Shown piece by piece: positions 3,365 to 32,358 of a stretch of 64,000 nucleotides of DNA. The first letter of the stretch is position 1, and each line of letters begins with the position of its first letter. Origin of the DNA: Glycomyces salinus (GTDB lineage Bacteria; Actinomycetota; Actinomycetes; Mycobacteriales; Micromonosporaceae); contig NZ_JAELXW010000039.1 of NCBI RefSeq assembly GCF_016428645.1, positions 1-64,000 of the forward strand. The letters run 5' to 3'. A program made the position numbers and the translations under genes. The notes beneath the pieces are model-generated. The model was not told where the DNA came from. It made no database searches and worked only from the letters and a program-made list of their open reading frames with translations.

Positions 3365-4819
<1,455 letters not shown>

Positions 4820-4828
<9 letters not shown>

Positions 4829-5570
4829 GCGAAGCGAAGGAACGGTAGCGGAGGCACAGCCGGTACTGAGCGAAGCGAAGGAACGGTAGCGGAGGCACAG
4901 CCGGTACTGAGCGAAGCGAAGGAACGGTAGCGGAGGCACAGCCGGTACTGAGCGAAGCGAAGGAACGGTAGCGGAGGCACAGCCGGTACTGAGCGAAGCG
5001 AAGGAACGGTAGCGGAGGCACAGCCGGTACTGAGCGAAGCGAAGGAACGGTAGCGGAGGCACAGCCGGTACTGAGCGAAGCGAAGGAACGGTAGCGGAGG
5101 CACAGCCGGTACTGAGCGAAGCGAAGGAACGGTAGCGGAGGCACAGCCGGTACTGAGCGAAGCGAAGGAACGGTAGCGGAGGCACAGCCGGTACTGAGCG
5201 AAGCGAAGGAACGGTAGCGGAGGCACAGCCGGTACTGAGCGAAGCGAAGGAACGGTAGCGGAGGCACAGCCGGTACTGAGCGAAGCGAAGGAACGGTAGC
5301 GGAGGCACAGCCGGTACTGAGCGAAGCGAAGGAACGGTAGCGGAGGCACAGCCGGTACTGAGCGAAGCGAAGGAACGGTAGCGGAGGCACAGCCGGTACT
5401 GAGCGAAGCGAAGGAACGGTAGCGGAGGCACAGCCGGTACTGAGCGAAGCGAAGGAACGGTAGCGGAGGCACAGCCGGTACTGAGCGAAGCGAAGGAACG
5501 GTAGCGGAGGCACAGCCGGTACTGAGCGAAGCGAAGGAACGGTAGCGGAGGCACAGCCGGTACTGAGCGA
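4820..5570. repeat. 18.3 perfect copies of a 41-bp tandem repeat at the ahcY 3' end
   Basis: The unit begins CGGTACTGAGCGAAGCGAAG and ends GCGGAGGCACAGC. Copies start at 4820 and every 41 nt after that. Eighteen are complete and, read line by line, identical; a 19th stops after 13 nt at 5570. The first copy contains the last two ahcY codons and its TGA, so the array looks like tandem duplication of the gene's end plus about 29 nt of 3' flank. Because 41 is not divisible by 3 and the minus strand of the unit lacks stops, all three minus frames are open through the array, but nothing suggests they are translated. The perfect identity points to recent or ongoing expansion. Confidence 0.98.
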
Positions 5571-5577
5571 GAACGCG

Positions 5578-5615
5578 AAGGCGGCCCGATCCGTTCGTTC
5601 GGATCGGGCCGCCTT
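5578..5615. terminator. bidirectional terminator between ahcY and moeZ
   Basis: A perfect 15-bp stem (AAGGCGGCCCGATCC with its complement) and an 8-nt loop lie between the convergent ahcY array and moeZ. The arms end in AA/TT, so weak T-runs follow on both strands. Confidence 0.8.
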
Positions 5616-21709: not shown

Positions 21710-22138
21710 CTAGCGAAAGCGGCGGACGAAGCGGTTCTGGAGGAAGTTCTCCACGGCTTTTGCGGAGTACTCGCGGCGTACGTAGGCGACGGCCTCGCGG
21801 CTGGGGACTCCGTCGAGGATCGCGAGGCAGGCGAGCGTGGTCCCGGTCCTGCCGCGCCCGCCCCGGCAGGCGACCTCGACCCGTTCGTGGGCGGCCCGCT
21901 CCCAGAGTTCGACCATGGCCGCGCGCGAGTCCTCGCGGTCGCGGGGAAGCCGGAAGTCGGGCCATTCGACCCACCGGTGCTCCCAGTCGAAGTCCGGAGG
22001 CTCGTGGTCGAGCACGTAGAGCCCGAAGGTCGGATCAGGACCGGAAGGCTCGGGCCGCGCCAGCCCCCGCCCCCGGACCAACCGCCCCGAAGGCAGCCGC
22101 AGAACTCCCTCGCCGCCCGGATCCCAGGTCTCGGTCAT
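21710..22138 (-). CDS. protein-tyrosine/dual-specificity phosphatase family protein
   Basis: A 142-residue phosphatase-like protein. It contains a WPD-loop match (W59-P60-D61 in VEWPDFRLP) and the CX5R signature with C91 and R97 (ACRGGRGRTGT), so it should be active on phosphotyrosine or similar phosphomonoesters. The N-terminal GEGVLRLPSGRLVRGRGLAR is shared with a decayed copy 2.5 kb away. The ATG is preceded by GGAGG at 8 nt; a longer frame upstream is not needed. It stands alone among accessory genes. Confidence 0.85.
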   Translation of the reverse strand: MTETWDPGGEGVLRLPSGRLVRGRGLARPEPSGPDPTFGLYVLDHEPPDFDWEHRWVEWPDFRLPRDREDSRAAMVELWERAAHERVEVACRGGRGRTGTTLACLAILDGVPSREAVAYVRREYSAKAVENFLQNRFVRRFR

Positions 22139-22299
22139 GTCTTCGATCCTCCAAGCAGCCGGGAACACGACTCATCGAGAAGCCTCCGCGACGTCAGTCC
22201 GAGCTCGCATCACTTAATGGCGCAAATATCTGAAATACAACTTTTGCCAGGAATCTCCGATGTCGGGATCTGCTTCATCGTTGCCCTAACTTCGGTTGC

Positions 22300-23238: not shown

Positions 23239-23327
23239 ACGACCAGACTAAAATCAACGGTGCGGCCATAATAAGATTCACACTGCGACCATTGCAAAAT
23301 AGATAGGCGACCATCCTAAAATAGGAT
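23239..23327 (+). promoter_or_regulatory. four direct repeats and a palindrome upstream of the ATPase gene
   Basis: Copies of GCGACCAT-N3/4-AAAAT start at about 23239 (degenerate), 23262, 23285 and 23307, spaced 22-23 bp, about two helical turns. The last copy runs into a perfect 15-bp palindrome ATCCTA-AAA-TAGGAT (23313-23327), just before the -10 box. The region is noticeably AT-rich against its surroundings. The layout suggests cooperative binding by a dimeric regulator, possibly the ATPase itself through its winged helix. Confidence 0.6.
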
Positions 23328-23331
23328 GTCC

Positions 23332-23337
23332 TATACT
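23332..23337 (+). promoter_or_regulatory. -10 box of the ATPase gene
   Basis: TATACT ends 6 nt before the ATG at 23344, so transcription probably starts at that ATG (leaderless). The -35 position falls inside the fourth direct repeat. Confidence 0.5.
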
Positions 23338-23343
23338 GCAGCA

Positions 23344-24612
23344 ATGGTCCAGATTCCTCCATCACCGATCGGCGCGCTCCTGCCCCGTCATGCCGCCGAC
23401 ATCCTCAGCGAGGCGATGACCGACACGCGAGTGGTGCTGGTCAACGGCGCTCGCCAGTGCGGCAAGAGCACTCTGGCCATGCAGGCAGGCAAGGTACGAG
23501 GAGCCGAGTGGCGAACTCTCGACGATCCCCAGACCCTCCAGTTCGCGAGGGACAACCCCGGCGAGTTCGTGGAGACCGACCGGACCATGATCATCGACGA
23601 GATCCAGCGGGCGCCGGAGCTGCTGCTGCCCGTCAAGTACTCGGTCGATCAGTGGCCTCAGCCAGGGAAGTTCCTGCTCACCGGCTCCGCTCGAGTCATG
23701 GGCCTGCGGAACCTCCCGGACACCCTCGTCGGGCGCATGGAGACGGTGGAACTCTGGCCGCTCTCTCAGGGAGAGATCGACGGCAGGCCCGACGACTTCA
23801 TCGACGCGATATTCGAACACGGCGCCGATTTCCGGCATTCCTCCGGAGAGTCGCGCCGCGACTACATCGACCGGATCACCCGAGGCGGTTTCCCGACGGC
23901 CGTGGCCCGGACGGGGCAGCGTCGGGACCGGTTCTTCAGCGCGTATATCGCGGACCTCATCAATCGCGACGTCATGGAACTGGAGCGGATCAGGCGCACG
24001 ACGGAGCTGCGCCGCATGGTGGACATGCTCGCCGGGACCGCAGGACAGCTCCTTGTGCAGAGCACTCTCGCGAACCGCCTCGGGATCACGCAGCCGACGG
24101 TGAGTTCATATCTCGGTCTGCTCGAAGAGGTGTTCCTCGTCAAGCGGATCCCCGCCTGGTCACGGAACATCTCCACGCGCGCGGTCAAGACCCCGAAGCT
24201 CGCGTTCGTCGACTCCGGAATGGCGGCACATCTGCTGGGTATCGACGCTCATCGACTCCGCCGGCCCGGGGCGCCGCTTGGACCGCTTCTGGAGAACTTC
24301 GTAACGATGGAGATCGCCCGGCAGCTCACCTGGGCTCGAGAGCAGATCGGCCTCTACCACTACCGCACCAAAGACAAGACCGAGGTCGACATCGTTCTGG
24401 AGAACCGCCGCGGCGAGGTAGTGGCCATAGAGGTGAAGGCGGCCGAAACGGTCAAGTCCGAAGACTTCAAGGGCCTCCGGAATCTCGCCGGCCACCTCGG
24501 CGGCGACCTCCTCCTTGGGGCGGTGCTCTACACCGGCAGGCATACTCTCACGATCGACTCGAACATGCTGGCGATCCCGATCTCAGCTCTCTGGGAAGGT
24601 CCGACCGACTGA
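23344..24612 (+). CDS. AAA_14/DUF4143 ATP-binding protein
   Basis: A 422-residue ATPase of the AAA_14-DUF4143 type. Walker A is GARQCGKST, Walker B is TMIIDEIQ, sensor 1 is FLLTGSARVMGL. A winged-helix segment follows (LANRLGITQPTVSSYLGLLE), and the C-terminal DUF4143 region carries EVDIVLENRRGEVVAIEVKA, a D-x(n)-E-x-K pattern of the restriction-endonuclease fold. The cellular role of this very common, patchily distributed family is not established. I prefer the ATG directly after the -10 box; an in-frame ATG at 23326 would add six residues upstream of that box. The gene is preceded by an unusual direct-repeat array. Confidence 0.88.
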   Translation: MVQIPPSPIGALLPRHAADILSEAMTDTRVVLVNGARQCGKSTLAMQAGKVRGAEWRTLDDPQTLQFARDNPGEFVETDRTMIIDEIQRAPELLLPVKYSVDQWPQPGKFLLTGSARVMGLRNLPDTLVGRMETVELWPLSQGEIDGRPDDFIDAIFEHGADFRHSSGESRRDYIDRITRGGFPTAVARTGQRRDRFFSAYIADLINRDVMELERIRRTTELRRMVDMLAGTAGQLLVQSTLANRLGITQPTVSSYLGLLEEVFLVKRIPAWSRNISTRAVKTPKLAFVDSGMAAHLLGIDAHRLRRPGAPLGPLLENFVTMEIARQLTWAREQIGLYHYRTKDKTEVDIVLENRRGEVVAIEVKAAETVKSEDFKGLRNLAGHLGGDLLLGAVLYTGRHTLTIDSNMLAIPISALWEGPTD

Positions 24613-24641
24613 TTCGCCGCCAGAGTGACAGTGCACTTCTG

Positions 24642-24889
24642 GAACCGTCGGACGAAGCGGTGTCGGGCCGGGGCTTCCACGGCTTTCTCGGCGTATCCGC
24701 GGCGGACACAGGCCAGCGGACCCACCGGGACTCCCATTCGAAGGGCCCCGGCTCTTTCCCGAAGACGTAGAGCCCGAGGTGGGGATCCGGACCGGGCGCC
24801 TTGGGGCGGCCCAGTCCCCACCCGCGGAAGAGCCGACCGGAAGGCAGTCGCAGGACGCCTTCGCCGTCGGGGTTCCAGGTATCGGCCAT
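24642..24889 (-). pseudogene. decayed second copy of the tyrosine phosphatase gene
   Basis: The first 60 codons (GEGVLRLPSGRLFRGWGLGR and on to WESRWVRWP) closely match the intact phosphatase at 21710-22138. The frame then breaks, and the remaining match, VRRGYAEKAVEAPARHRFVR, appears in another frame and corresponds to its C-terminus. About 50 codons holding the CX5R active site are deleted, and the WPD-loop aspartate is gone (WPV). It cannot be catalytic. Confidence 0.85.
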
Positions 24890-24895
24890 TCGCGC

Positions 24896-27406
24896 TCACG
24901 CTCCGAAGCAGACGAAGGGGTGCCAGGGGCGGTTCTCGCCCACGGCTGCCAGGGCCTCGGCCGGGGTGGCTCCTGCGGCGCAGCGGCGGTGGTAGTCGAT
25001 CATCATCTCGGCGGCCAGGTCATCGGGGACGCGGCCGAGACTGGAGACCACTGTAGAAGTGCCGGCGTGCAGGAGCGCCGCGGTGAACCCGAGCGTCTCG
25101 TGTCCCACGGTGACCGTCGACCGTCCCAGGTCGCAGGAAGACAGGACCACGTGGGCGGGAGGCTGGTCGAGGCCGAGCAGCTCGTAGGCGTTCAGCGGAC
25201 CTTGGGCGAAGTTCAGGCGCGAGAACAGGACGTTCTCGGGCTCGTGGTTCCCATGGGCGGCGAGGTGGGCGACCGAGGCGCCGTCCAGCGACTGGAGGAT
25301 GACTTCGGGGTCGGACTTCTCGGCGGGTATCAGGTTGGAGCCCGGATAGAGTTCGGCGACCTCGACGATCTCGGCCCCGGCCCGGTTCAGCGCCGGACCG
25401 GCCGCGACGAGCGCCGGGCCGCTCGCCCGGGTGCGGGTGGCCGCGCGCCACCATGCCTCGGCGGATGGCGCGACCGTGAGCGGCCTGCCGCGCAGCGGAG
25501 GCAGCAGGGGCCACGGTACCCAGGCGATCTGGGAGTGCGGCACGAACACCACTTGCCGGTCCCCGACGTAGTCGCTGATCGGATCCCAGATGCCGGCGGC
25601 GAGCGCATCCGTGTTGCGTTTCAGGGACCGCTCGACGCTGAGCCGCAGCATATCGGGAAGCCGGTTGGAACCGAGCGCGTCCAGGTCGGCTCCGAGCCGC
25701 CGACCGGCCTCGGCGGCCTCCTCGGTGTCCATGAGTTGGACCTGCCGGAGCTCGTCTCCCCCGGCGAGCACCGCGCAGAGTCTGCCGGCGATCCCGAGCA
25801 TCGTCACCAGGACGGTCTCCCGCTCCTGCGCGAGGCCGTGGATCACTTCGGGCGTGATGCGCTCCTCTTGACGCCGCGGCCCCGGCCTCCCGCGGTCGTA
25901 GGTCCGGATCTCCTCTTCAAGCTCCCGCACACGCGACTGGAACCCGGTCGGGTCCTCTCCTGCCGCTCGCTGAGCCCAGATCTGCTGACGGGCCTGACGA
26001 AGACGACCGAGGACCTCCCGGACATGCGAATCGGCGCTCGACTTCACCGGTGGAATGCGGAGGACCTGCGCCCTGCTCCGCTCCGCCCACTCCAATGTGT
26101 CCCCGGGCGAGTTCCCGCGGCCTGCCCTGCCCAGGCCCTTGCTCGCCAGTTTGATTCCCAATGCCGACACGCCGGCCTGGAATTCCACCGAGCCGAACTC
26201 GACCCGGTAGGTGTCCAGCAGGTCCAGTCCCTGGCGGAGATACGGCAGCGGGTCCTCTCCGCGGGCTTCGGCGAGTTCCGCCTTCGCCAGGTGCCAGGCC
26301 AGGCTCTCGGCCAGGGTCTCGTAGACCTTGCTCTCGGGCGGCAGGTGCAGCCGGGCCTCGGCCTCTTCCAAGTCCCCCGAGCGAATCCGCGCCCGGGCGG
26401 CGAGCACCCTGGTCTGGGCGAGCCGCAGCGCCCACCCGCGGCTCTCGAGCGCGTCGCACAGGCGCGAGACCTTGTCGGCGAAGTCCGAGCCTTCCCGATT
26501 CGAGTCGAACTGTCCCTGCAGGATCAGCAGCTGCGCCAGGAAGGCCATGGGCTCGTTGCCCTGCTGGTACAGGGAGTCCATCGCCTGCTTCGCCCAGGCA
26601 CCGGCCAGTTCGAACTGATTGTCCTCGAACGCCACCACCGCTCGCCAGAACTCCGCGATCGCGGCGTCCCTGCGGTTTCCGGACGACCGCATGATCTCGA
26701 TTTCCGCGGACCAGTGCTCTACGGCCTGCGAGTACAGGCCGACGCTCAGCAACGCGTCGGCATAGGAGCCGTGGAGATATCCTTCGAGCTCCGGGGAGTG
26801 CTCCCGGTACTGGGTCCTGACCTCGTCGAACGTCTGCAGCGCCCTCGTCACCTCTCCGAGGTCGAACCAGTGCAGCGCCTCCTGGTGCATGGCCTTGGCC
26901 CGATGCACGGGACTGCCCATCTTCGTGTAGAGTTCGACGGCATTCTGCGTGCTCTGCAGGCCCTTCTCGACCTCTCCGAGGTCCCGCCACACTCCGCCCC
27001 GGTTGACGAAGAGTCCCGCGTACATCCAGTCCGGTCCATGCTCCTCCAGGTACGGCTCGGCGGCGTCGAACCACTGGAGACTGTCGCGCGGGCGACCGCT
27101 CAGCCACAGGATCAGTGCGCGCTGGTGCAGGAGCATCCCCCGGTCGCGCGCGTCGGCGAAGGGTTCGGCCCAGGCGAGCGACTGGAAGCCTTCGTTGGGT
27201 TTTCCCTGGCTGGTCAGATTCGCCGCCCGCACGACCAGCACCCGGACGATCAGTCGCGCACGGGCGGTACCTGTGACCGGCGGGTTCTCGGGGTCCCAGT
27301 CCAGCAGCTCCAATGCTGCTTCGAGCGCCTCGGACGCCTCGGCGGTGCGGCCGCGACGGTCCAGACGCTGGCCGCGTGAGAACATGCGCCATGCGCGAGA
27401 AAGCAT
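24896..27406 (-). CDS. TPR-CHAT caspase-like protease
   Basis: An 836-residue protein: helical TPR-type repeats from about residue 20 to 430 (for example ARARLIVRVLVVRAANLTSQ, AKAMHQEALHWFDLGEVTRA), a charged linker, and a C-terminal CHAT domain (about 560-836). Both catalytic positions of the caspase-like dyad are present: His 718 in HLAAHGNHEP and Cys 758 in VVLSSCDLG, so it should be an active cysteine peptidase. It has no signal peptide or membrane segment. The ATG lies 10 nt after the stop of the preceding gene; it is the fourth gene of an operon with a subtilisin, an ECF sigma and a small two-domain protein. TPR parts of such proteins usually bind a partner or sensor that controls the peptidase. 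Confidence 0.92.
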   Translation of the reverse strand: MLSRAWRMFSRGQRLDRRGRTAEASEALEAALELLDWDPENPPVTGTARARLIVRVLVVRAANLTSQGKPNEGFQSLAWAEPFADARDRGMLLHQRALILWLSGRPRDSLQWFDAAEPYLEEHGPDWMYAGLFVNRGGVWRDLGEVEKGLQSTQNAVELYTKMGSPVHRAKAMHQEALHWFDLGEVTRALQTFDEVRTQYREHSPELEGYLHGSYADALLSVGLYSQAVEHWSAEIEIMRSSGNRRDAAIAEFWRAVVAFEDNQFELAGAWAKQAMDSLYQQGNEPMAFLAQLLILQGQFDSNREGSDFADKVSRLCDALESRGWALRLAQTRVLAARARIRSGDLEEAEARLHLPPESKVYETLAESLAWHLAKAELAEARGEDPLPYLRQGLDLLDTYRVEFGSVEFQAGVSALGIKLASKGLGRAGRGNSPGDTLEWAERSRAQVLRIPPVKSSADSHVREVLGRLRQARQQIWAQRAAGEDPTGFQSRVRELEEEIRTYDRGRPGPRRQEERITPEVIHGLAQERETVLVTMLGIAGRLCAVLAGGDELRQVQLMDTEEAAEAGRRLGADLDALGSNRLPDMLRLSVERSLKRNTDALAAGIWDPISDYVGDRQVVFVPHSQIAWVPWPLLPPLRGRPLTVAPSAEAWWRAATRTRASGPALVAAGPALNRAGAEIVEVAELYPGSNLIPAEKSDPEVILQSLDGASVAHLAAHGNHEPENVLFSRLNFAQGPLNAYELLGLDQPPAHVVLSSCDLGRSTVTVGHETLGFTAALLHAGTSTVVSSLGRVPDDLAAEMMIDYHRRCAAGATPAEALAAVGENRPWHPFVCFGA

Positions 27407-27416
27407 TCTTTACATG

Positions 27417-27947
27417 CTACAGCCGTACTGCGGGTGTCACGACGACCGCCGGAAGCCCCTCACGCTGCAGTCCTTCAGCCGGTCGAATCACGAGTTGAAA
27501 CATCTGGCCGTGCGGAAGACCCTCCAGGACGAATCTGCCGGTCTCATCGGATGAGGCCAGTTTGGTCGCTTGCGGACTCCGTATCTCGACTTCGTAGGTG
27601 CCTTCCGGACCGATCCACCCGTCTAGCCGCACTTCGCCCATTGCGGTGGGCCGCGGGGTGACCATGACGGTCACGGTCTCGCAGTCGAAGGTGATCGACG
27701 CGTGATCGCCCTGCCCGACTGCCAGATCGGCCTCGCCTCTGACGAGAGAGAGCTCGTTCTGGCTGATGCTCGCCACGCGGGCGTCGAGTTCGGCCTCGAT
27801 TTCGAGCGCGAACAGGATCCTCTCGTTGAGGTCCTCCGGGATCGGATCGTCCGTCCGATGCAGTTCGTTGATCACCGTCAGAATTCGCTGGTCGCAGGAG
27901 TCCAACGGCTCGTAGTCACCCTGGTCCTCAAGTTCAGGTCGCGTCAT
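27417..27947 (-). CDS. small two-domain protein between sigma factor and CHAT protease
   Basis: A 176-residue soluble protein. Residues about 15-60 are an acidic helical segment (RILTVINELHRTDDPIPEDL, then NERILFALEIEAELDARVAS) and residues about 75-170 are a beta-sandwich of carboxypeptidase-regulatory type (EVRLDGWIGPEGTYEVEIRS, GRFVLEGLPHGQMFQLVI). I have seen similar proteins next to sigma factors in other actinomycetes, but know of no assigned function. Its place after the sigma gene, overlapping it by 14 nt, and the helical N-terminus make an anti-sigma or protease-substrate role plausible; that is inference. GAGGAG supports the ATG at 27947 over the GTG at 27962. Confidence 0.8.
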   Translation of the reverse strand: MTRPELEDQGDYEPLDSCDQRILTVINELHRTDDPIPEDLNERILFALEIEAELDARVASISQNELSLVRGEADLAVGQGDHASITFDCETVTVMVTPRPTAMGEVRLDGWIGPEGTYEVEIRSPQATKLASSDETGRFVLEGLPHGQMFQLVIRPAEGLQREGLPAVVVTPAVRL

Positions 27948-28548
27948 CGTCCTGCTCCTCACCTCTGCCCCAGCCCGGATCGGCCAGCAGCGTCTTCCTC
28001 AGTTTGTTCAGGCAACGGCCCCTGGTGGGGCCGATGCTTCCCCTCTTCATCCCCAGCGTCTCGGCGATGTCGTCGTAGTCGGGCCGGTCGACCGACGCCA
28101 CGAAGGCGAGCAGTCTCCGGCACTTTTCCGGCTGGGCAAGGAAAGCACGCCGCACGGCCTCGTGTTCGGTATCGCGGACCAGGCTGTCCTCGATGCCTTC
28201 GATGGTCGGTTCTTGGATGTCGATCGGATCGGAGGCGATCTCGCGGCGGGAGCCGCCGATCAGCTTCCAGGCTTCGCGCCTGACGGTGGTGAGCAACCAT
28301 TTGGTCAGCGCTCGTGGTTGTTCCAGCTCGTTTCCAGGGCGCCACAGGCGAAGCCACGCGGTCTGCACGGCGTCGGAGGCGCTCTCCCGGTCCAGGCCCG
28401 CCCGACGCGCCGCCCGCCAGAGCAGCTCGTTGAGTTCCTCGACCAGGGTTCGCTGAGCACTTCTGTCGCCGCCGCGCGCGGCGAGGTACAGCTGCGCGCG
28501 GCGGTCGTAGTCCACAGCGGTCACCGATTGAGCCGGAATCGCGTTCAT
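27934..28548 (-). CDS. ECF-type sigma70-family factor
   Basis: A 204-residue sigma factor with region 2 in about residues 20-95 (LYLAARGGDRSAQRTLVEEL, SASDAVQTAWLRLWRPGNEL, RALTKWLLTTVRREAWKLIG) and region 4 in about 135-190 (RPDYDDIAETLGMKRGSIGP, TRGRCLNKLRKTLL). No anti-sigma membrane protein is nearby. It starts 9 nt after the subtilisin gene and overlaps the next gene by 14 nt. It probably drives its own operon; I could not identify a confident ECF promoter upstream of the first gene. Confidence 0.92.
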   Translation of the reverse strand: MNAIPAQSVTAVDYDRRAQLYLAARGGDRSAQRTLVEELNELLWRAARRAGLDRESASDAVQTAWLRLWRPGNELEQPRALTKWLLTTVRREAWKLIGGSRREIASDPIDIQEPTIEGIEDSLVRDTEHEAVRRAFLAQPEKCRRLLAFVASVDRPDYDDIAETLGMKRGSIGPTRGRCLNKLRKTLLADPGWGRGEEQDDDAT

Positions 28549-28557
28549 TCCCTCAGG

Positions 28558-30105
28558 CTAACGGTTTTTCAATCGCTTGAGGGCCCCGTGGACCCACGTC
28601 GCGGCCTGGACGGAGTTCTCGACCGCCGCCGGGGGAACGCCTGAATCGGCCATCTCGTTGGCCAGGTATGCGGCCGCCACCGGCGCGGCGAACGAGGTGC
28701 CGCTCCAGATGGCGTATCCGGCCGAGAAGTCGTCCGGGTCGTGGCTCTCCCGGTGGCGGTCGATCGAAGACATCGACTGCCGATCGGGCATGCGCGATCC
28801 CTTGCCGTCGCATGGGAACGTGCTCACCAGGGCCGCGCCGGTGGCGAAGCACGAGACCCAGGTGCCGTCGTTGGAGAACATCGCGACGTTCCGGTTGGAG
28901 TTCAGCGCCGCCACGCTGACGACCGGGGCGGAGTCCTCGGCCTGCGGGTGCGCGGCGAAGGCTGCCGGATAGAACGGGCGGTCGGAGGACTGGTTGCCGG
29001 CCGCGGCGACCACCGGCACTCCGAGGGCCGTCAGGCGATCGACCTCCGCCTTGAGCCAGCGACCGGGCTGGTCGTCGGGGTCCTCGTCGACGTATCCGCT
29101 CGCCACGACCACCATGTCGGCCTCCACCGCCTGAGGGTCGCCGCCCCGGGCCGCTTCGACCTGGTTCGCCACATGGCGCAGCGCCGCGATCATCTCGTGC
29201 TCGTAGCTGAGCCCGTCGTTGTGGACGACTCGCAGCGAGTACACCTGGACGTCCGGGGCCATCTGGCGAAGCAGGCCCGTCATGAACGTCCCGTGGCCGT
29301 AGTGGCTGGCGATCTCCTTGATCAGGTTGGGTTCGTGGACCGGTCCCTCCCACGGCGTCTTCAGCGGTCCCGCGAGGGAATCCGCGTGCTTCGCCAACTC
29401 CTCCTGGAACTCGTGGTCGACCACCACGAAGGTGTCCTCGCGCATGGTCCGATCGGAGACGTCGAACGCGGGGTGCTGCCGGGGCACGCCGGTGTCGAGG
29501 ATCGCGACCTTGACTCGGCGATCCAAGAGGCGTCGCGGAGGCATCGGGTTCACCATGTCGACCGGGATGCGCCCGAGTGGGCTCAGGTGCGCTCCCACCG
29601 GGGACGGCTCGGGGCTGCCGATGCTGGGACCGTTCTTCGAGCACACCAGGAGGTGCTCCAGGCCGACCTTGGCGGCGATCTCGTCCTCGAGCCGGCCCTG
29701 GGTCACCGCCGAGCGCACGGACTGGAGCACCGCCCAGGCGTCCACTGTCGCGGGGCCTCCCCGGCCGCTCAGGGTGACCGGCACTCGGCTCGAGCCCTGA
29801 CCGGCCACGATCGACCTGGCCGACTGGCATTCCAGCTTCAGGCCGTTCGGGCGCAGCGCGTCGGAGAGCCGACCCCGCGCGTCCGGGTCCCCCACGACGG
29901 ACTCATCCACAAGGAGTCGGTCGTAGCGGTAGATGGTGCCGACCGGCATGGGCTGCTCGGGTGCGCGGACCACGTCTCCGGGGCGCAGCACACGGCTGCC
30001 GTGGCGGTCCAGCGCGATCGGAGAAAGTTCGGGGACACCGTCCATCAGATGGCGACCGGGGTTCGGCTCCAAGTGCGGCTCTTCGTTGGCGAAGACCAGA
30101 CGCAT
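28558..30105 (-). CDS. cytosolic S8 family (subtilisin-like) serine peptidase
   Basis: A 515-residue subtilase with the full triad: D204 in VAILDTGV, H271 in HYGHGTFM, S471 in SGTSFAAP, and the oxyanion Asn 371 in AAAGNQ. There is no signal peptide and no I9 prodomain; the first 195 residues are a domain I do not recognise (contains RPGDVVRAPEQPMPVGTIYR and a region resembling a short repeat-binding fold). It should act in the cytoplasm. The ATG has GAGGAG 6 nt upstream, which is why I reject the 49-residue longer frame. It is the first gene of the sigma/CHAT operon, so a second protease class is produced together with the CHAT protease. Confidence 0.92.
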   Translation of the reverse strand: MRLVFANEEPHLEPNPGRHLMDGVPELSPIALDRHGSRVLRPGDVVRAPEQPMPVGTIYRYDRLLVDESVVGDPDARGRLSDALRPNGLKLECQSARSIVAGQGSSRVPVTLSGRGGPATVDAWAVLQSVRSAVTQGRLEDEIAAKVGLEHLLVCSKNGPSIGSPEPSPVGAHLSPLGRIPVDMVNPMPPRRLLDRRVKVAILDTGVPRQHPAFDVSDRTMREDTFVVVDHEFQEELAKHADSLAGPLKTPWEGPVHEPNLIKEIASHYGHGTFMTGLLRQMAPDVQVYSLRVVHNDGLSYEHEMIAALRHVANQVEAARGGDPQAVEADMVVVASGYVDEDPDDQPGRWLKAEVDRLTALGVPVVAAAGNQSSDRPFYPAAFAAHPQAEDSAPVVSVAALNSNRNVAMFSNDGTWVSCFATGAALVSTFPCDGKGSRMPDRQSMSSIDRHRESHDPDDFSAGYAIWSGTSFAAPVAAAYLANEMADSGVPPAAVENSVQAATWVHGALKRLKNR

Positions 30106-30419
30106 GGGGAGCTCCTCTCGTCTCGGGGGTGTATGTGGATGTGGTTGTGATGCGAGCCCACGACTCGCAAGAGGGGCGGGTCCACATGGACGATAGCCCT
30201 CGGGACTGCTGTGGCGCGTGCGCCCAGCTCGGTTGTTCAGATCGGGAGGCACTCTAAACCCGAAATGCCGCCATCGTCACGGACTGGGACGTTATCAACG
30301 GCATTCACCCCTGAAGAGTCCCGCGCCCGTCCCGAGATACACGGGTCGGCGGAATTTCTTCGGGGGTCCGGGCCGCACGGACGGCCGCCCGGCGGGCCGA
30401 TCAGAGGTCGGGCGTTGGT
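30106..30419 (-). promoter_or_regulatory. 314-nt region upstream of the S8/sigma/CHAT operon
   Basis: No gene is seen here. On the minus strand GTGACG (30280-30275) and TAGAGT (30256-30251), 18 nt apart, form a modest housekeeping-type promoter, giving a leader of about 140 nt. An AAC-N14-CGA pair a little upstream (within GATAACGTCCCAGTCCGTGA) is only a poor match to ECF promoters. The part near 30366-30412 is GC-rich inverted sequence just past the DUF397-like gene and may help terminate it. Confidence 0.3.
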
Positions 30420-30662
30420 CTAGGCCCAGGTCGGGAGGTCGAATTCGCCGTCCCGCAGACCCTCCTGGAACGCCTTCCACTCCTCGGGGGTGTAGATGAG
30501 GATGTCGCCGTCGGGGTCGTCGGCCCGGCGCAGGGCCACCATGCCGTTGTCGGCGTAGCCGATCTCCAGTTCTCCGGGGGTGCCGTCCTCGGTGGCGGGC
30601 CGCTCCCAGCGGGCGGCGGCGGTGTCGAATTCTCCCTTGAGCGGGTGCTCACGCTTGGTCAT
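30420..30662 (-). CDS. DUF397-like small protein
   Basis: An 80-residue soluble protein whose second half (VALRRADDPDGDILIYTPEE, WKAFQEGLRDGEFD) matches the end of DUF397 proteins, which in actinomycetes usually pair with XRE-type regulators. The Cys-containing first half of classical DUF397 is replaced by other sequence and no XRE gene is adjacent. A TATGCT box ends 6 nt before the ATG, so the message is probably leaderless; that box overlaps the terminator of pruA. Confidence 0.7.
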   Translation of the reverse strand: MTKREHPLKGEFDTAAARWERPATEDGTPGELEIGYADNGMVALRRADDPDGDILIYTPEEWKAFQEGLRDGEFDLPTWA

Positions 30663-30673
30663 CGCTCAAGCAT

Positions 30674-30706
30674 AAGGGGCCCGGACCCTCCCGGTCCGAG
30701 CCCCTT
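30674..30706 (-). terminator. pruA terminator
   Basis: A 14-bp stem with one mismatch (AAGGGGC-CCGGACC and complement) and a 5-nt loop lies 24 nt after the pruA stop and is followed on the minus strand by ATGCTTG. It overlaps the -10 box of the next gene. Confidence 0.7.
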
Positions 30707-30729
30707 TGAGTCGCTTCGCGCGCCGCTAC

Positions 30730-32358
<1,629 letters not shown>

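Follow-up and report, generated by a model that had tools for sequence, protein, structure and literature searches.

A conserved actinobacterial cassette of a subtilase, an ECF sigma factor, a small two-domain protein and a TPR-CHAT protease: a possible protease-gated sigma switch

Among the extracytoplasmic function (ECF) sigma factors, the group ECF54 is described with a conserved genomic context of subtilase, CHAT and "carboxypeptidase" proteins, and control by proteolysis has been proposed for it (PMC8999054). In its passages on this group, the same review places ECF54 among the systems without an anti-sigma factor and treats the control of ECF54-type sigma factors as an open question. In Craspase, the tetratricopeptide repeat (TPR) CHAT protease Csx29 cuts the inhibitor Csx30, and according to the model given there, the sigma factor CASP-sigma is freed (PMC10028731). 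The locus discussed here is found in Glycomyces salinus (assembly GCF_016428645.1, 5.37 Mb in 211 contigs), on contig NZ_JAELXW010000039.1, within a stretch of 64,000 nt that was analysed as a whole and is referred to as the window. The open reading frames (ORFs) and translations of the window place four genes on the minus strand at 24896-30105, encoding an S8 subtilase, an ECF sigma factor, a small protein and a TPR-CHAT protease, in this order. The cassette may constitute a cytosolic, protease-gated switch of the ECF sigma factor, in which a soluble anti-sigma factor is cut by the TPR-CHAT protease and the sigma factor is freed. This reading, to which we give about an even chance, rests on the conservation of the layout, the intact active sites of both proteases, the linkage of the sigma factor to the small protein, the predicted fold of the latter, its linker residue Arg70, the couplings between its helices and the sigma factor, and the precedents of Craspase and CalpL. 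The gene neighbourhood itself is already known as the context of ECF54 (PMC8999054), whereas the initial annotation of this DNA named no characterised arrangement.

The four genes are closely packed, as had been described initially. The subtilase and sigma genes are separated by 9 nt and the small-protein and CHAT genes by 10 nt, while the sigma and small-protein genes overlap by 14 nt with the ATG start of the small protein and by 29 nt with its alternative GTG start. For comparison, neighbourhoods were fetched for 60 sigma match places from a search of 101 genomes, and the cassette proteins were identified by phmmer. All four proteins are encoded in the same order in 21/21 other Glycomyces genomes, with one CHAT protein split over frames and one ended by a contig end, which agrees with the compact operon architecture claimed at the outset and shows that the arrangement goes beyond chance. 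A named set of 80 loci comprises the top-ranking ones among at least 579 relatives and is biased towards close ones; 77 of these loci gave a sigma call. All four genes lie within 7 kb in 57 of the 77, with the small protein called in 73, CHAT in 65, and S8 in 63. Nine of the 57 complete loci belong to Glycomyces. Outside the genus, all four genes are present in 48 of 68 actinobacterial loci with a sigma call, and the impression that related arrangements occur in other actinomycetes is thereby borne out. In a draw across the phylum, 40 loci were fetched of 74 listed places, and 39 gave a sigma call. Among these 39, all four genes are found in 20 loci, sigma, small protein and CHAT in three, S8, sigma and small protein in one, sigma and small protein in eight, and sigma alone in seven, so that the small protein lies near the sigma factor in 32. 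The conserved co-occurrence that the initial annotation had put forward as a check thus extends well beyond the strain of the window.

The order of the genes was surveyed over 182 loci, in which some species occur twice and the small-protein labels of the first set are incomplete, since they were obtained by single-sequence search. The order S8-sigma-small-CHAT occurs 81 times and the order sigma-small-S8-CHAT seven times, while the CHAT gene lies upstream on the opposite strand in 11 loci. These differing orders indicate that the linkage of the cassette survives rearrangement. The loci L237-L240, L242 and L243 of one large-genome genus (f18/g71) combine S8-sigma-small with a CHAT gene upstream on the opposite strand. 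L076 and L077 carry S8-S8-sigma-small-CHAT-CHAT, i.e., duplicated S8 and CHAT genes around a single sigma-small pair.

The sigma factor matches Sigma70_r2 in Pfam (4.7e-8) and sigma70-ECF (6.6e-14), and 25/25 of its PDB profile matches at E <= 0.001 are sigma factors. Region 4 contains the family signature GSIGPTRGRC, which served as the pattern in the scan that collected the named loci. When the sigma factor was searched against 101 genomes, the matches listed formed two groups, with E <= 3.4e-19 and E >= 1.6e-10, respectively, and this gap suggests a family that is well separated from other ECF factors. Of 296 genomes sampled across the phylum, 55 contain the family at E <= 1e-20. Around the sigma factor, the conserved genes encode subtilase, CHAT and carboxypeptidase(-regulatory) proteins, as in the context given for ECF54; the tentative assignment to this group, whose representative is SFT86700.1, is made by gene context.

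Both proteases retain complete active sites. The subtilase matches Peptidase_S8 over residues 196-483 (2.2e-22, Pfam), and its triad D204/H271/S471 is invariant in 46/46 relatives, counting S8 proteins of more than 350 amino acids and leaving out shorter calls. The catalytic domain follows an N-terminal region of about 195 amino acids without a Pfam match, where Y59 (96%), D122 (93%) and H151 (98%) are conserved among 104 S8 proteins. The TPR-CHAT protease gives a CHAT match of 8.3e-27 in addition to TPR_2 (Pfam). Its dyad H718/C758 is invariant in 49/49 proteins of more than 600 amino acids and in 131/131 of a wider set, shorter calls again being left out, and E679 is kept in 130/131 of the wider set. 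When a profile of 23 cassette CHAT proteins was compared with the PDB, the best 60 of 212 matches were mostly TPR chains and included one CHAT protein (8rot, matched in its CHAT part). The two unrelated protease classes recognised in the initial annotation are therefore confirmed as having complete active sites. The N-termini of both proteases show no obvious hydrophobic leader in the translations, which were read without a dedicated signal-peptide tool.

The initial annotation spotted the cassette as a whole, but gave the small protein no special role as the probable connection between the proteases and the sigma factor. Its gene mostly starts a few nucleotides from the sigma stop codon and often overlaps it. 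Fusions of the two genes were considered and rejected, as six sigma loci where no small protein was called are followed by genes that appear unrelated when read by eye. The small protein of the window has no Pfam match up to E 0.1 in a first search and matches CarboxypepD_reg at 0.099 in a second. Among its relatives, 42 of 51 match CarboxypepD_reg at E <= 0.1, with a best value of 4e-8. CarboxypepD_reg is a non-catalytic beta-sandwich. An AlphaFold2 model built from 51 sequences, with a predicted local distance difference test score (pLDDT) of 83.7 and a predicted template modelling score (pTM) of 0.56, contains helices at residues 17-33 and 40-66 and seven strands between residues 85 and 156, while the pLDDT falls below 50 at residues 63-78. 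In this model, a pair of helices in the small protein is joined by a disordered linker to a beta-sandwich, an architecture that does not look like that of a carboxypeptidase. Foldseek found no PDB match to the model at E <= 0.001, the best being an FN3 domain at 3.7e-3; the top 50 matches consist of FN3, Ig, CBM and similar beta-sandwiches or multidomain proteins, with no peptidases. We infer that the "carboxypeptidase" of the ECF54 passages corresponds to this CarboxypepD_reg-type small protein. No membrane segment is present in its sequence or model. The motif HxxxCxxC is the zinc motif of the common class I anti-sigma factors (ZAS), and it is absent from the small protein, whose sequence was read by eye.

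The most conserved column of the small protein is Arg70. After duplicates were removed from 158 sigma-small pairs, 149 remained, and 148 of these have Arg at this position. In the sole exception, the pair from locus L137, an Arg is found four residues earlier. Arg70 sits in the gapped linker that is predicted to be disordered, where every other column has a conservation of at most 0.62. The residue that follows it is G in 83, S in 39, A in 17, T in 8 and H in 1 of the 148 pairs. Such features, an invariant residue next to a small one within a disordered stretch between two domains, resemble a specific protease site. Arg70 is thus proposed as the putative cut site, with Arg at P1 and the small residue at P1'. 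CHAT belongs to the clan CD proteases. Within this clan, Arg is common at P1, as listed for clostripain, paracaspase, metacaspase (which also accepts Lys), gingipain R, separase and PrtH, but not for caspase, legumain and MARTX-CPD (Table 2 in PMC4357240).

The sigma factor and the small protein also appear to be linked at the level of residues. Over the 149 pairs, the top couplings between the two proteins exceed those of 30/30 near-relative partner swaps. Of the 50 strongest couplings, 62% involve residues 15-68 of the small protein; this share is 55% for the 100 strongest and 48% for the 200 strongest, compared with 38 +/- 6%, 36 +/- 5% and 38 +/- 2% in 12 swaps. In the control, the couplings between CHAT and the small protein place 36, 40 and 40% in the same residues, and 37, 37 and 38% after 12 swaps. 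The placement of the couplings supports a contact with the sigma factor through the helices of the small protein.

The following mechanism can be outlined. At rest, the sigma factor would be held by the two N-terminal helices of the small protein. An intracellular signal might be sensed by the TPR part of the TPR-CHAT protease, which would then cut the small protein after Arg70, between the helices and the beta-domain, as the conservation of this residue suggests. The helical half would be lost or degraded, and the freed sigma factor could activate its target genes, among them perhaps the operon itself. S8 would act as a second, accessory protease that may complete the breakdown of the cleaved inhibitor or control CHAT activity; part of the loci have no S8 call nearby. 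A broader claim is that a large, CRISPR-free family of switches made of a TPR-CHAT protease, a soluble anti-sigma factor and an ECF sigma factor exists across Actinomycetota, with the caspase-like protease cleaving its dedicated two-domain inhibitor behind one invariant Arg that precedes a small residue. This is put forward tentatively, at somewhat under an even chance.

Several observations weigh against the switch. Seven of the 39 sigma loci of the phylum-wide draw have no partner called, and sigma paralogues without partners exist in Glycomyces itself (L005, and L061 in genome G011). Arg70 is equally kept in 26/26 pairs without a CHAT call in the fetched locus. In 15 genomes without a CHAT call at the sigma locus, a cassette-grade TPR-CHAT protein (281-882 bits, some in pieces or ended by contig ends) is encoded elsewhere in 12, and the remaining three have none of this grade, as G072 and G366 give no match and G094 only one of 128 bits. 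Alanine substitutions in Csx30 revealed no residue that is essential for cleavage, and the cut lies outside the main linker (PMC10028731); the precedent accordingly does not require an invariant P1 residue. No anti-sigma domain is found among the PDB matches listed for the small protein. The couplings were computed from 121-149 pairs, with an effective number of sequences (Neff) of 111 for 149. Furthermore, the couplings between the sigma factor and CHAT also exceed their swaps, with a z of 6.8 compared with 9.1 for the small protein (121 pairs, 11 swaps each), which means that the coupling total is not specific and that shared ancestry explains part of it. When the sigma factor and the small protein of L137 were modelled as one chain with AlphaFold2, the domains were well predicted and the pTM was 0.42, so their mutual orientation is not confident.

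The explanation already in print for ECF54 dispenses with an anti-sigma factor: the proteases would hold the system off through degradation of the sigma factor itself, and the small protein would be an adaptor or a substrate-presenting factor. Degradation of the sigma factor has been put forward for this group (PMC8999054), and the co-encoding of proteases and sigma factor fits it. It leaves unexplained the linkage of the sigma factor to the small protein, the near-invariant linker Arg and the couplings between helices and sigma factor, and the match of the small protein is to a carboxypeptidase regulatory-like domain and not to a peptidase, for which reasons we regard it as unlikely. The cutter might instead be S8, with CHAT upstream as sensor and S8 activator in a two-step cascade. 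S8 is encoded in the same operon, and its conserved N-terminal region of about 195 amino acids could be a prodomain. Sorted by fetched locus, the 149 pairs comprise 109 with CHAT and S8, 14 with CHAT only, four with S8 only and 22 with neither. Arg70 is kept in 108 of the 109, in all 14 pairs with CHAT and without an S8 call, a count made within the fetched locus, and also in all four S8-only pairs. The 14 pairs, together with the frequency of P1 Arg in clan CD, make S8 a quite improbable cutter.

Arg70 could also be a binding residue, with the linker folding on the sigma factor or CHAT, and the proteases could be effectors that act on other proteins in a death or stress operon whose sigma factor serves its own expression. 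Invariance can indeed reflect binding, and in type III CRISPR, SAVED-CHAT confers immunity via a proteolysis cascade (PMC11229360). On the other side, the linker is predicted to be disordered and a small residue follows Arg70 in 147/148 pairs. The evidence bearing on the initial suggestion of a death or defence response is negative as well. PADLOC recognised only S8, through a generic subtilase match (9.8e-7) and a match of 0.086, and returned no match for the other three proteins, while an alignment search with the sigma factor in viral contigs gave 18 pattern matches and 0 confirmed relatives. An aldehyde dehydrogenase ORF and a DUF397 ORF upstream of the cassette have matches in 21/21 fetched Glycomyces loci, a pattern as for an inherited chromosomal locus. 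The defence reading was therefore rejected as nothing specific emerged, and a death or defence role, though conceivable, has no support in the PADLOC, viral-contig and neighbourhood data; the explanation through binding and effectors is accordingly considered improbable. The other half of the initial suggestion, a regulated proteolytic cascade, is supported in the form of a possible relay from protease to sigma factor.

The features of the locus are collected in Table 1. The 5' leader of the operon carries AGAGGAG, which resembles a ribosome-binding site. Several Glycomyces relatives have an inverted repeat, at most 13 bp long, 5' of the ribosome-binding site, and its arms seem to differ in step between species, as judged by eye with pair changes uncounted. 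Folding of the leader reaches z <= -2 in 11 of 22 sequences. The leader hairpin was not retained for the window, whose own sequence is not significant (z -1.11). The repeat is a candidate RNA switch or operator. No Rfam family was found at the gathering threshold in 23500-31500. Upstream of the S8 gene, a GGCATTCCGGGCTTGAGTGCC-like block at 30248-30269 on the minus strand is conserved across most of the genus and represents a candidate promoter or operator.

Table 1. Features of the cassette and their positions in the window.
Feature	Position	Strand	Size	Basis
S8 subtilase, first gene	28558..30105	-	515 aa	Pfam Peptidase_S8
ECF sigma factor	27934..28548	-	204 aa	Sigma70_r2
Small protein, proposed soluble anti-sigma factor	27417..27947	-	176 aa from ATG	
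Small protein, alternative GTG start	27417..27962	-	181 aa	
Val-Arg70-Gly of the small protein, proposed cleavage site	27735..27743	-	codons 69-71	translation VRG; conservation
TPR-CHAT caspase-like protease, proposed sensor and cutter	24896..27406	-	836 aa	Pfam CHAT and TPR_2
5' operon leader, partly conserved in the genus	30106..30217	-		alignment; inverted repeats in many relatives

Directly behind the CHAT gene lies a truncated ORF (24548-24889, minus strand), the first 179 nt of which are 74% identical to a complete gene for a DSP/PTP-type phosphatase at 21710-22168 on the same strand. Between the two are plus-strand ORFs, including one for a DUF4143/AAA_14 protein at 23326-24612. A fifth cassette gene in the form of a phosphatase split by an insertion was ruled out by repeat search and translation, which show a complete gene at 21710-22168 and a separate truncated copy. 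Elsewhere in the window, positions 4814-5592 form a head-to-tail tandem array with a unit of 41 nt; among the matches listed are 18 overlapping copies of 82 nt, which are mostly identical. The same genome contains a second sigma gene that is 70% identical and has no partners (locus L005, 7994-8644, plus strand); it adjoins genes for an ABC exporter and a luciferase-like monooxygenase.

To our knowledge, substrates are known for few CHAT proteases outside CRISPR. If the protease-gated switch is correct, a single residue would identify both the substrate and the cut site, making a simple in vitro test possible. An experimental study of the cassette was not found in the open-access literature searched. 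CATRA and the ternary conflict systems were considered as a possible parallel. The terms CHAT, ECF, CATRA and sigma factor do not occur in the main text of Kaur 2020 (PMC7159879), and term searches of PMC13118837 and PMC8103513 gave nothing on the cassette. In PMC8195603, CATRA is mentioned once, and other caspase/ECF neighbourhoods are described.

Among the described systems, ECF54 resembles the cassette in combining an ECF sigma factor with subtilase, CHAT and "carboxypeptidase" proteins. The ECF54 passages name no anti-sigma factor, whereas the small protein is proposed here as both anti-sigma factor and protease substrate. Compared with these passages (PMC8999054), the predictions added here are that the small protein acts as anti-sigma factor and that cleavage occurs at the invariant Arg, together with the observation that the linkage survives rearrangement across the phylum. 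If they are true, the description of ECF54 as a group without an anti-sigma factor would be overturned. The release of a sigma factor through proteolysis of its anti-sigma factor is also known for RseA and RsiW. Cleavage of RseA takes place within a transmembrane segment (PMC10028731), whereas the small protein of the cassette has no membrane segment. The same logic of protease, anti-sigma factor and ECF sigma factor is found in CalpL/CalpT/CalpS of type III CRISPR (PMC11417357); CalpL is a Lon protease with a SAVED sensor, in contrast to the TPR-CHAT protease of the cassette. Craspase, or DiCASP, of type III-E CRISPR combines a TPR-CHAT protease, a two-domain sigma inhibitor and an ECF sigma factor, as the cassette may do (PMC10028731). 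The two differ in the size of the inhibitor, as Csx30 has 565 amino acids and the small protein 176, and in the added S8 subtilase of the cassette. The CHAT protein of the window reaches only 14.4 bits on NCBIfam NF041237, the model of Csx29-type TPR-CHAT proteins, for which the cut-off is 300. No CRISPR-like array was found in the 64-kb window, where direct repeats of at least 22 nt within 120 nt belong to three families that are arranged head-to-tail or have two copies, and none has the spacing of such an array. If the proposed switch is real, a protease that cuts an inhibitor and thereby frees a sigma factor would be a widespread actinobacterial design and no speciality of CRISPR, and the cassette would represent the general chromosomal form of the Craspase logic, with a subtilase as second protease.

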